A DNA stretch of 64,000 nucleotides from Oscillospiraceae bacterium (GTDB lineage Bacteria > Bacillota > Clostridia > Oscillospirales > QAMX01): contig SVLY01000003.1 in the NCBI GenBank assembly GCA_015067715.1, positions 1 through 64,000 on the forward strand, in the 5' to 3' direction. Numbering within the stretch: position 1 is the stretch's first letter; every line of letters begins with the position of its first letter. The notes below the pieces were generated by a model, which saw nothing but the letters and a program-made list of their open reading frames with translations, searched no databases and was not told where the DNA came from. The position numbers and the translations under genes are program-made. Below are positions 7,532-26,525 of this stretch, piece by piece.

Positions 7532-7943
7532 AAACAAGGGCACACTCAGCGTGTTATCCTTAACGGATAACACGAGTCAAATCCGTCTTCGACGGGTGAA
7601 ATCCACCTCTGGTGGATGAAATCGCTTTCGCGATGAAATCCTGCTTCGCAGGGTTGTATTCAGACGGATTTGATTTCATCCAAGGACTTGTCCTTGGATT
7701 TCATCTGAACGAAGTGAAGATTTCATCGTTGCCGCGCAACGATTTCATTAAACCAACAGAAAAAGAGATAACATTTCGGATTGACCCGATTTGTTATCTC
7801 TTTCTGTCGTTATAAGGGTTTGGGCAACTGCCCATGTTTGCGTTTGACTGGTCAAATGCGATGCTTGCACTTTGCTCAAAGCATAAGTTCTCCGCTAAGA
7901 ACGTCACCCTTCAGAGCGCAGGGTTTTGAGTGTGCCTTTGTTT
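7532..7943. repeat. long palindrome-array element A inside terminator arms
   Basis: This 412-base element fills the gap between two convergent genes. Its ends, aaacaagggcacactca (7532-7548) and 7927-7943, are inverted repeats with one mismatch and look like a bidirectional terminator stem. Inside are, in order: a head hairpin near 7549-7573; a chain of small hairpins, each led by GAAAT and then mirrored as ATTTC (about 7575-7750); a long stem from AGAAAAAGAGATAACA with its partner; and a 3' domain with GGGCAACTGCCC, a GCGTTTGAC/GTCAAATGC hairpin and TTCTCCGCTAAGAAC. No plausible gene is present. The same layout recurs at 56451-56868. Confidence 0.8.
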
Positions 7944-23793: not shown

Positions 23794-24942
23794 TTACTGA
23801 TTTATCTCTGAAAATTCCACTTTGACTACCTTGGTGCAGTTAAGCCGTCGGTCGGTTCCGTTGCTGTGATAATAGCTCACCAAAAAACCGTCACGCACGC
23901 CGATCACCGCAGGGTAGCAATAGCTGTCGGATTCGTCGTCTTCCAGCATATAGCAGTTTTCCTCAAAGACTCTGAACTCCTTGTCCACAAAGGTCTTTGC
24001 CGTGCCGTCGAAGGACTTGCCCCCGTCGTAGCTCACAGCGCAGAGAATGGGCGTGCGCCTGATTCCGCTCATTGTCTCTCTGTTTTGTCCCACGTGGCAA
24101 AAGCTTCGTGGGTTGAACACCGCAAGGGTCATGTTTTCGACTCTTTTGACCCGCATTGGGGCATCGGGAGACATGAAGAGAAAGTTTGGCTCGGCAGGGG
24201 TCCAGCTTTCGCCGCGATTCTGTGAGAAGCTTTGGTACTGGAAGCCGTAGTTTGTGCGGCAGTACGTCCAAAGCGTACCGTCTTCGTATTCGTGAATACC
24301 CGGCTCGGCAAAACCCACGTTGTCGTCAAAGGGGGACTCTATAGTGTAGGGAAGCTTCGTCCAGGTCTTCCCGCAGTCATCCGAGACCGCAAACTGAACG
24401 ACTCCGCTTTTGAACTTTGTGTAGCTGAATCCCGACCTTCCGAAAGAATCGTGGCTCGCCCCGTGAAACGCAAGGGGAACCCATATGCGCCCCAAACTGT
24501 CCACCATGCAACCGTCGTTTATAGCGCAGTAATAGCCCACCTCGTCGGTGCAGGGAACAGCCTTGCTCCACGTCTTTCCCTCGTCGGAAGAGCTTCGAAA
24601 CCACGGCATACAGGTCACGGTTCCGTCTTCTATAACCTCTTTTCGCAGGTATTCAAATCCAAGCTCCCCGTTTGACATTCTGAAAAGGCATGGGGACATA
24701 TAGTTTTGGGCTTTCTCGTCCTTTTCAAGGAGTATTTCGGGTGTTGTCCATGTCTCACCCTCGTCGGAGGAATAACAGGCGGAGATCCTTGCCGTGCCGT
24801 GGTCGTCCCACTCTTCGCTGTAATACTCGGTAAAGGCGTGGCAGATCCGCCCGTCGCTCAGCCGCACAAAAGCAGCTTCGCCGTTGCGGGGATTAAATTT
24901 CGACGTTGTAATAAACAGGGTCTCCCGTCCGATCTTTTTCAT
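23794..24942 (-). CDS. BNR-repeat sialidase-like protein (tandem copy 2)
   Basis: 382 residues. Asp-box motifs SSDEGETW, SSDEGKTW, SDDCGKTW and YDGGKSF mark a six-bladed propeller. It is highly similar throughout to the upstream gene, so the pair is a tandem duplication. There is no signal peptide, and the family name does not prove neuraminidase activity. Twenty bases separate it from the first copy and about a dozen from the isomerase, so translation of the three genes is probably coupled. The ribosome site is AGGAGG. Confidence 0.82.
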   Translation of the reverse strand: MKKIGRETLFITTSKFNPRNGEAAFVRLSDGRICHAFTEYYSEEWDDHGTARISACYSSDEGETWTTPEILLEKDEKAQNYMSPCLFRMSNGELGFEYLRKEVIEDGTVTCMPWFRSSSDEGKTWSKAVPCTDEVGYYCAINDGCMVDSLGRIWVPLAFHGASHDSFGRSGFSYTKFKSGVVQFAVSDDCGKTWTKLPYTIESPFDDNVGFAEPGIHEYEDGTLWTYCRTNYGFQYQSFSQNRGESWTPAEPNFLFMSPDAPMRVKRVENMTLAVFNPRSFCHVGQNRETMSGIRRTPILCAVSYDGGKSFDGTAKTFVDKEFRVFEENCYMLEDDESDSYCYPAVIGVRDGFLVSYYHSNGTDRRLNCTKVVKVEFSEINQ

Positions 24943-24962
24943 TTCAAGACCTCCTAACCTTT

Positions 24963-26099
24963 CTATTCCAGCTCGGAATATTCTATCTTGACGAGCTTTG
25001 TGCTGTTAAGGCACACCTTGGTTCCCGCGCTGTGGTAGTAGGCAACCAAGAATCCGCCCTCCACACCGATTGTTGCGGCGTAGCAATAGCTGTCGCTCTT
25101 GTCGGTCTCAAGCAGGTAGCAGTTTTCGATAAAGTCCGCAAACCCGCCGTCGTGGGCAAGAGTTTTGCCGCACATGAAGGATCTTCCGCCGTCCCGGCTG
25201 ACAGCGCAGACAAGGGGAGTTCTCTTTGGGCTTCCCCAAATCTCTTTCTCCTCGTCCAGACAGCAAAAGCTTCTGGGGTTGAACAGCGAAACCGTATATT
25301 TTCCCACGTTTTTAATACGCATGGGTGCATCGGGCGAGGTAAACTTGAAGTTCGGCTCTATGGCAGTCCAGCTTTCGCCTCGGTCGCCTGAGAAGCTCTG
25401 GTACTGGAAGCCGTAGTTCGTGCGGCAGTACATCCAAAGCGTACCGTCCTCAAACTCAAAAACCCCGGGCTCCGCAAGTCCCGCATCGTCCGAAAAGGGG
25501 GCTTCGATGGTCACGGGAAGCTTCCGCCACGTCTCCCCGCAGTCGTCGGAGACCGCAAACTGAATAACGGCGTTTTTGTACTTTTCAAACTTAAAGCCGA
25601 TGTCCATTATGCAATTTCCGTGGTAGGACACGGGAACCCAAATGCGCCCCGTGCTGTCCACAAAACAGCCGTCGTTTATAATGCAGTAGTAGCCCATCTC
25701 GTCGGTGCACAAGACCCGCTTGCTCCATGTCTTGCCCTCGTCTTCCGAGTAGCAGAACATGGGCATACAGGTTATCTCGATATTGTCCACGATGGCTTTG
25801 CGAAGATAGGTCATACCGAGCTTTCCGTTTGCAAGTCGGAAGAGGTTCGGCGCCATAATGTTTTGGTCGGTCTCTTCCTTTTCGATGAGTATTTCGGGGG
25901 TTGTCCATGTCTCGCCCTCGTCGGAGGAATAGCAGGCGGAGATCCTTGCTGTGGCGTGGTCGCTCCAGTCGCCTCCGTAGTATTCCGTAAAGGCAAGGCA
26001 AATCCGTCCGTCCTTCAGACGGACAAAGGTGGATTCTCCGTTGCGGGGATTCTTTTCCGTGGTAGAAAGAAACAAAGTCTCCCGTCCGATCTTTTTCAC
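24963..26099 (-). CDS. BNR-repeat sialidase-like protein (tandem copy 1)
   Basis: 378 residues. Asp boxes include SSDEGETW, SEDEGKTW, SDDCGETW and RDGGRSF. It begins MKKIGRETLF like its neighbour. No secretion signal is visible, so it should act on an imported glycan. It is the first gene of the three-gene operon and has its own promoter at 26132-26160, downstream of the terminator of the candidate RNA at 26176-26315. Compared with the protein at 4460 it is a different subgroup with longer loops. Confidence 0.82.
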   Translation of the reverse strand: MKKIGRETLFLSTTEKNPRNGESTFVRLKDGRICLAFTEYYGGDWSDHATARISACYSSDEGETWTTPEILIEKEETDQNIMAPNLFRLANGKLGMTYLRKAIVDNIEITCMPMFCYSEDEGKTWSKRVLCTDEMGYYCIINDGCFVDSTGRIWVPVSYHGNCIMDIGFKFEKYKNAVIQFAVSDDCGETWRKLPVTIEAPFSDDAGLAEPGVFEFEDGTLWMYCRTNYGFQYQSFSGDRGESWTAIEPNFKFTSPDAPMRIKNVGKYTVSLFNPRSFCCLDEEKEIWGSPKRTPLVCAVSRDGGRSFMCGKTLAHDGGFADFIENCYLLETDKSDSYCYAATIGVEGGFLVAYYHSAGTKVCLNSTKLVKIEYSELE

Positions 26100-26131
26100 T
26101 GTTCCGGCACCTCTCTTTTATCTTTACGGTC

Positions 26132-26160
26132 ATTATAGCACAGCAACAGCCAAAGCGCAA
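26132..26160 (-). promoter_or_regulatory. promoter of tandem sialidase-like operon
   Basis: Minus strand TTGCGC (26160-26155), 17-base spacer, TATAAT (26137-26132). Confidence 0.7.
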
Positions 26161-26175
26161 TCCCGGCAGACAAAG

Positions 26176-26315
26176 AAAAAAAGCCTCGTAACGAGGCTTT
26201 GGAGCAAATACAAGCGGATGGGCGGTGTATCCATCATCTCAGGTACTTCTAACGAAGTGCGTCGGGAACCATTTCCGACCTCGCCTGTATCTGCAGAGTA
26301 TTATATTAATTCTCC
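26176..26315 (-). ncRNA. candidate structured small RNA of unknown family
   Basis: About 140 nucleotides with an own promoter and terminator. A 13-base-pair stem, GCAGATACAGGCG (26294-26282) with CGCTTGTATTTGC (26216-26204), closes a junction of three hairpins: GTCGG/CCGAC (26279-26261), ACTTC/GAAGT (26256-26243) and GATGG/CCATC (26235-26217). Then comes a terminator, AAAGCCTCG/CGAGGCTTT plus seven T. It contains no start codon with a ribosome site. I could not match it to SRP, 6S, tmRNA, RNase P or the riboswitch consensus sequences I know. The following gene has its own promoter, so this is more likely an independent RNA than an attenuator. Confidence 0.6.
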
Positions 26316-26321
26316 GAACAC

Positions 26322-26350
26322 ATTATACCAGACAATATCCTCTTTGTAAA
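26322..26350 (-). promoter_or_regulatory. promoter of candidate small RNA
   Basis: Minus strand TTTACA (26350-26345), exactly 17 bases, TATAAT (26327-26322). The -35 lies directly at the T run of the pnp terminator arm. Confidence 0.8.
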
Positions 26351-26351
26351 G

Positions 26352-26525
26352 AAAAAACACCGCCCCGATAAAGGGTGTTGTTCTATTCGCCATAAACTGT
26401 CCGCAGGACAATATCACTATGCGTAGCATAATATCACTGCGAAGCAATATAACTCGCCGTCAGGCGAATAGAACTGGCGTGATACTCCGAAAAGAGTATC
26501 ACGCCAAAGCTGAACGGTGTTTTTT
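26352..26525. repeat. palindrome-array element C inside pnp terminator arms
   Basis: Outer arms aaaaaacaccg (26352-26362) and cggtgtttttt (26515-26525) are perfect inverted repeats placed like the pnp terminator. Read on the minus strand, the interior has a head hairpin (26505-26476, GGCGTGATACTC arm) and then an array starting GTTCTATTCGCC and closed by GGCGAATAGAAC. The small hairpins inside are linked by GTTATATT or GTGATATT. It lacks the 3' domain of elements A and B. Confidence 0.8.

Follow-up and report, generated by a model that had tools for sequence, protein, structure and literature searches.

What is the RNA that lies between pnp and a sialidase gene in the genome of this Oscillospiraceae bacterium, and what could it do there? 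In the window (the whole analysed stretch of 64,000 nucleotides), the earlier note had described a small RNA with a four-way junction that matched no RNA family it knew, and had taken it for either a new small RNA or a riboswitch-like attenuator of the sialidase operon. The signals that it had listed were recovered: the promoter, TTTACA-17-TATAAT at 26350-26322, has the exact 17-base spacing and matches the consensus at 11 of 12 positions, and the fold and the terminator scan returned the 13-pair closing stem, three hairpins and an intrinsic terminator within about 140 bases. The Rfam search that the earlier note had proposed gave a strong match to a known family and refuted the claim of novelty: the RNA matched RF02924, 'skipping-rope', with 70.1 bits (E = 7e-15, gathering cut-off 36.7), the model being covered end to end. 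The feature belongs to the skipping-rope RNAs. The earlier note rightly saw a small RNA equipped with a promoter and a terminator of its own, but the RNA is not new, being a full-length member of RF02924. The family was reportedly first described by Weinberg et al. in 2017, and in a literature search outside which most subscription papers fell, no published function was found for it. A genome search returned one skipping-rope copy in the source genome, the window RNA. The features are as follows.

26322-26350, minus strand: promoter of the RNA, TTTACA, 17-base spacer, TATAAT, TG before the -10 (11/12 matches)
26176-26315, minus strand: predicted transcript, about 140 nt long (its start deduced from the -10 and its end from the terminator)
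26209-26289, minus strand: skipping-rope RNA core, RF02924 model positions 1-80 of 80, 70.1 bits
26282-26294, minus strand: 5' arm of closing stem P1, 13 pairs, the conserved 8 on the junction side (fold; P1 covariation)
26204-26216, minus strand: 3' arm of closing stem P1 (fold)
26261-26279, minus strand: hairpin P2, 5 pairs, 9-nt loop AAAUGGUUC at 26266-26274 (fold, covariation)
26245-26258, minus strand: hairpin P3, 5 pairs, 4-nt loop, of varying length among homologues (fold, alignment)
26217-26235, minus strand: hairpin P4, 5 pairs, 9-nt loop AUACACCGC at 26222-26230 (fold, covariation)
26268-26271, minus strand: pseudoknot strand UGGU in loop P2, pairing with 26223-26226 (covariation)
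26223-26226, minus strand: pseudoknot strand ACCG in loop P4 (covariation)
26180-26200, minus strand: intrinsic terminator hairpin; the U run behind it reaches about 26172 (terminator scan)
26406-26476, minus strand: repeat element Gut-1 (RF01706), placed after pnp and ahead of the RNA promoter, a neighbour outside the RNA (Rfam scan)

The 140-nt sequence was predicted to fold with -50 kcal/mol (z = -5.6), a value equalled by none of 200 shuffled sequences. In this fold the three hairpins form the four-way junction and the terminator hairpin stands separate; P4 sits flush on P1, with zero unpaired bases in between. A homologue search with a covariation test, likewise suggested by the earlier note, bore the structure out: on 26 aligned homologues both the stems and the pseudoknot covaried, as judged against shuffling and sliding controls. 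Across 101 homologues, the complementarity between loop P2 and loop P4 of the same RNA was 10.13, compared to 8.35 for permuted partners (sd 0.15; reached in 0 of 1000 permutations), and the pairings ranged over GGC/GCC, GGU/ACC, UGUGC/GCACA and CGUACA/UGUACG. The window RNA pairs UGGU with ACCG between the loops of its first and third hairpins, as RF02924 requires. This pseudoknot (pk_1) is already drawn with covariation support in Rfam 14 (PMC7779021), and our covariation is thus a confirmation and not a discovery. In one phage copy (L448, 1460 onward) P3 seems to be expanded by a long insertion, and the 3' half, GAGATGCAGGATATGCCGCCCTGC, lies further downstream.

The surroundings of the RNA were inspected by eye. 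The T run of the pnp terminator abuts the -35 of the RNA promoter, and the sialidase gene, which starts on the same strand about 80 nt past the RNA terminator, is preceded by an extended -10 promoter of its own (TGCTATAAT, about 26130-26140, with the -35 TTGCGC and a 17-base spacer); both had been noticed correctly in the earlier note. The sialidase promoter is missing from the list of the promoter scan because its -35 matches at only 3 of 6 positions. Directly downstream of the RNA, 23794-26099 on the minus strand holds two tandem paralogous sialidase/BNR-repeat-like genes, a stretch that relatives lack behind pnp. Gut-1 occurs in the window at 7574, 13652, 22464, 26406, 56497 and 63870, and genome-wide with 72 matches in 2.7 Mb (37 above cut-off), some of them near contig ends. 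Although listed in Rfam as a small RNA, it is dispersed here and behaves like a REP-type repeat element, unlike a single-copy sRNA gene.

Open frames around 140 homologous loci were clustered into families, and one protein family stood out, being found at 55 loci and, within 1.5 kb, at 54 of the 140. The spacing between this gene and the RNA was mostly 3-114 nt, and its 3' end always pointed towards the RNA, in 51 cases from upstream on the strand of the RNA and in 4 convergently. PBECR3 is a predicted RNase family of Barnase/EndoU/ColicinE5/RelE-like type. According to Pfam the partner proteins are PBECR3/PBECR2, with 44 of 45 members matching PBECR3 (PF18812) at E ≤ 0.001 and the first member scoring 87.9 bits (cut-off 30). 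The family was defined in a paper in which the term 'noncoding RNA' is absent (PMC5512222), and our search, which most subscription papers again lay outside, returned no paper joining BECR proteins with RNA antitoxins. The partner was also considered as an annotated defense protein or other named family and rejected as such: NCBIfam gave no match and PADLOC only two isolated weak matches, in one member each.

When the loci were searched with a profile in six frames, PBECR lay beside the RNA at 35 of 59 loci from bacteria and 6 of 12 from named genomes, and at 15 of 64 loci from viruses and 2 of 5 from phage records. About 40% of the bacterial and 77% of the viral copies had no PBECR within 700 nt, and the RNA may therefore have another role. 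PBECR3 was present at 21 of 76 RNA loci and at none of 163 control loci from the same scans; the controls were chance matches of a loose pattern scan of genome contigs, most matches of which are chance. The linkage also held in reverse, when PBECR3 was sought directly in two genome draws. Open frames of up to 200 aa with PBECR3 had an RNA at Rfam level within 350 nt in 37 of 43 cases, while PBECR3 in frames over 200 aa (polyvalent or MuF-type proteins) had one in only 3 of 18 (p = 4e-7). Among the six exceptions, G722 carries a degenerate RNA (23 bits) and G338 a variant that is clear by eye; with these two counted in, the stand-alone genes with an RNA rise from 37 to 39. G724 has a weak match under the cut-off, the RNA of G372 lies 1.9 kb off, G316 has no RNA, and in G552 (L374), which breaks the pairing most clearly, the PBECR3 gene is intact and the RNA terminator is kept with the RNA core deleted. 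At two further loci (L322, G221 C65; L359, G609 C1) a PBECR-like domain ends a protein of about 500 aa, and a skipping-rope RNA follows behind; the start of these proteins resembles a phage MuF/head protein. RNA and PBECR3 are genetically linked in both directions.

The two partners also evolved jointly. RNA and protein distances correlated over 51 pairs with a Mantel r of 0.755 (none of 5000 permutations was as high, the highest being 0.16), and with r = 0.56 for remote pairs, although such a correlation would also be expected from the joint inheritance of neighbors alone. The losses were asymmetric. RNAs without a nuclease were common and kept their fold, with a pairing of 0.896 as compared to 0.899 in paired RNAs, and interrupted or truncated nuclease genes were seen beside intact RNAs (G309, G090 and the second G276 copy). 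Among the cases inspected by eye, a nuclease whose RNA was clearly lost occurred once (G552/L374). Common lone RNAs and rare lone nucleases are what an antidote predicts, unlike a guide or cofactor. The partner protein has no solved homologue by sequence. Its AlphaFold model reached a pLDDT of 93 and a pTM of 0.85, and the top of the list of PDB fold matches consisted mostly of HigB, RelE, BrnT and RelBE toxins, none of the matches being individually significant (best E = 0.06). This toxin-dominated list is in line with the Pfam name PBECR.

The distribution of skipping-rope RNA is patchy: of the genomes searched, 28 of 399 at the level of the phylum, 51 of 391 at that of the class and 3 of 21 at that of the family (one just under the cut-off) had it, and it was absent from the one other species of the genus examined. 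The RNA was also found in Enterocloster phages with genomes of some 100 kb, in prophages of Streptococcus and in a satellite phage; the copy in phiJH1301-1 is flanked by the lysis genes and the annotated attachment site. With an identical pattern, true RNA was found in 64 of 120 viral stretches as compared to 12 of 119 genome stretches, base composition being uncontrolled in this comparison, which points to an enrichment on viral contigs. Some viral loci are near-duplicates, and the viral counts thus overstate independence. Within 558 kb, the viral RNA loci held 56 tRNA genes, spread over 14 of the 64 loci, while control viral loci held 1 in 444 kb (1 of 56; p = 7e-4). At all tRNA-bearing viral loci except one, the nearest tRNA was on the strand of the RNA, in the closest cases at a distance of 1 nt (L115), 0 nt (L170) and 11 nt (L178). 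Copies in the tRNA context had a promoter in 21% and a terminator in 7% of cases, PBECR-paired copies in 93% and 82%; a promoter was found in 20% of shuffled sequences. As they mostly lack both signals, the tRNA-context phage copies are probably excised from the tRNA precursor. Several phages carry two tandem copies of unlike loop type (L083/L111/L132, L134, L151, L153), as if antidotes were collected, and further tandem RNAs were seen at G419 C7 27943-29644 and G751 C70 15355-15680.

The window copy stands alone. No PBECR was found within 700 nt on either side, the upstream gene being pnp, and a toxin-antitoxin pair, which would need an adjacent PBECR gene, is therefore absent from the window locus. 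In the source genome, neither PF18812, whose controls gave no match either, nor a profile of 45 sequences returned a PBECR. An insertion behind pnp shared with relatives was considered and rejected, as in 16 family members the nucleotide similarity to the window ends near the pnp stop codon. With no PBECR found in the genome and nothing behind pnp common to the relatives, the window copy appears to be an orphan, lineage-specific antitoxin RNA with intact promoter, fold, pseudoknot and terminator. With the genome about 92% complete, the assembly may have missed a PBECR gene. The window copy may be the leftover of a lost toxin-antitoxin pair, or may guard the cell against PBECR nucleases that phages or other mobile elements import.

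Because the RNA and the nuclease gene are linked in both directions, evolve jointly and are lost unequally, we consider it likely that skipping-rope is an RNA antitoxin of small PBECR3/PBECR2 ribonucleases and that the window carries an orphan copy. PBECR3 would be toxic and neutralized by the RNA, which would be made in excess from its own promoter, fold into a compact four-way junction locked by the kiss between loops P2 and P4, and in this form bind the PBECR nuclease and block it. The intact PBECR3 gene of G552 with its deleted RNA core counts against the antitoxin reading. Colicins E5 and D cut tRNA. A more speculative version, which we regard as possible though doubtful, is that PBECR nucleases cut tRNA as well and that skipping-rope acts as a decoy in the shape of a tRNA, its cloverleaf-like fold with a D-loop/T-loop-like kiss filling the PBECR active site; phages would keep one or several RNA subtypes inside their tRNA clusters, where tRNA-processing enzymes would mature them into antidotes to the PBECR toxins of bacteria or rival phages.

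Linkage and joint evolution would equally be expected if the RNA were a guide, scaffold or activator of the nuclease in a two-part RNA-protein effector, not its inhibitor. We hold this to be unlikely, as the RNA is often retained with its fold but without the nuclease, nuclease genes decay next to intact RNAs, the RNA occurs in phages by itself, both in tRNA clusters and as tandem copies of unlike type, and a variable guide segment is not evident. An sRNA that acts in trans, as a regulator or for housekeeping, and that is unrelated to PBECR and shares only a mobile-element niche with it, would fit the finding of the RNA in phages, close to integrases and in tRNA clusters, places where accessory genes accumulate; the tight spacing and fixed orientation of the PBECR gene to the RNA, and a linkage that runs in both directions and is mostly missing for PBECR domains that form part of large proteins, make it similarly improbable. 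As for a riboswitch or attenuator of the sialidase operon, the position of the sialidase gene just past the terminator, on the same strand, is what speaks for it. Since the RNA is bounded by a promoter and a terminator of its own, and the sialidase gene is read from a separate promoter, this role is highly improbable; moreover, the downstream gene differs between loci, most paired copies end in a terminator of their own, and the copies in phage tRNA clusters precede no gene that could be attenuated. This second proposal of the earlier note is thus unsupported.

With the antitoxin reading, a catalogued RNA family for which no published function was found gains a testable one from its two-way linkage to a nuclease. 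What is new here is the position of skipping-rope directly behind PBECR3 genes and, most likely, a previously unrecognized toxin-antitoxin system. If true, this would be a system with an RNA antidote in which toxin family, gene order and RNA fold are unlike those of ToxIN, CptIN, TenpIN and AbiF; it would also give an antidote to the PBECR proteins that stand alone in phages and mobile elements, and suggest that antitoxin RNAs are carried in phage tRNA clusters too.

Compared to RF02924 as catalogued, the window RNA is a member with the same pseudoknot, to which the predicted function and the PBECR3 and tRNA-cluster contexts are added here. The RNA resembles tRNA in its size and its presence in phage tRNA clusters, as well as in having a closing stem with 7-8 pairs, a linker of 2 nt and three arms, the last of which is stacked without a gap on the closing stem, and a GG in the first loop that contacts the last loop. 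However, it has no anticodon loop, T-loop sequence, encoded CCA or match to the tRNA family, and the resemblance is one of layout only; a tRNA or tRNA remnant by sequence was rejected, as the Rfam scan gave no tRNA match up to E = 5. Phage PhiTE carries a pseudo-ToxI, an antitoxin-like RNA without a toxin, which was shown by experiment to neutralize the host toxin (PMC3475682); solitary skipping-rope RNAs in phages may play a similar role. The nearest precedent by analogy is the abiF RNA (RF03085; RCd22 of C. difficile), which was shown to neutralize the AbiF toxin. Its transcript is some 130 nt long and has a promoter and a terminator of its own, and the motif, credited to Weinberg 2017, is tied to one toxin gene in mobile elements (PMC12373285). 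Skipping-rope shares these traits, the linked gene in its case being that of a predicted toxin. The two RNA families are distinct, and so is the gene order: the abiF RNA lies ahead of the gene for a HEPN-fold toxin and shares a transcript with it, while skipping-rope comes after the gene for a predicted BECR-fold protein and is served by a promoter of its own. In the type III systems ToxIN, CptIN and TenpIN, a tandem-repeat RNA lies upstream of the toxin gene with a terminator in between and a single promoter, and the antitoxin RNA is cut by the toxin (PMC5086642). Skipping-rope resembles them as a pseudoknotted RNA beside a small ribonuclease gene with which it evolved jointly, but it is usually a single unit with its own promoter, it was downstream of the gene or convergent in 55 of 55 linked loci, and its partners are PBECR3/PBECR2 proteins (Pfam) and not of the ToxN, CptN or TenpN families. 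Skipping-rope with PBECR is therefore not type III as defined (PMC5086642), and is best read as a variant of type III-like systems.
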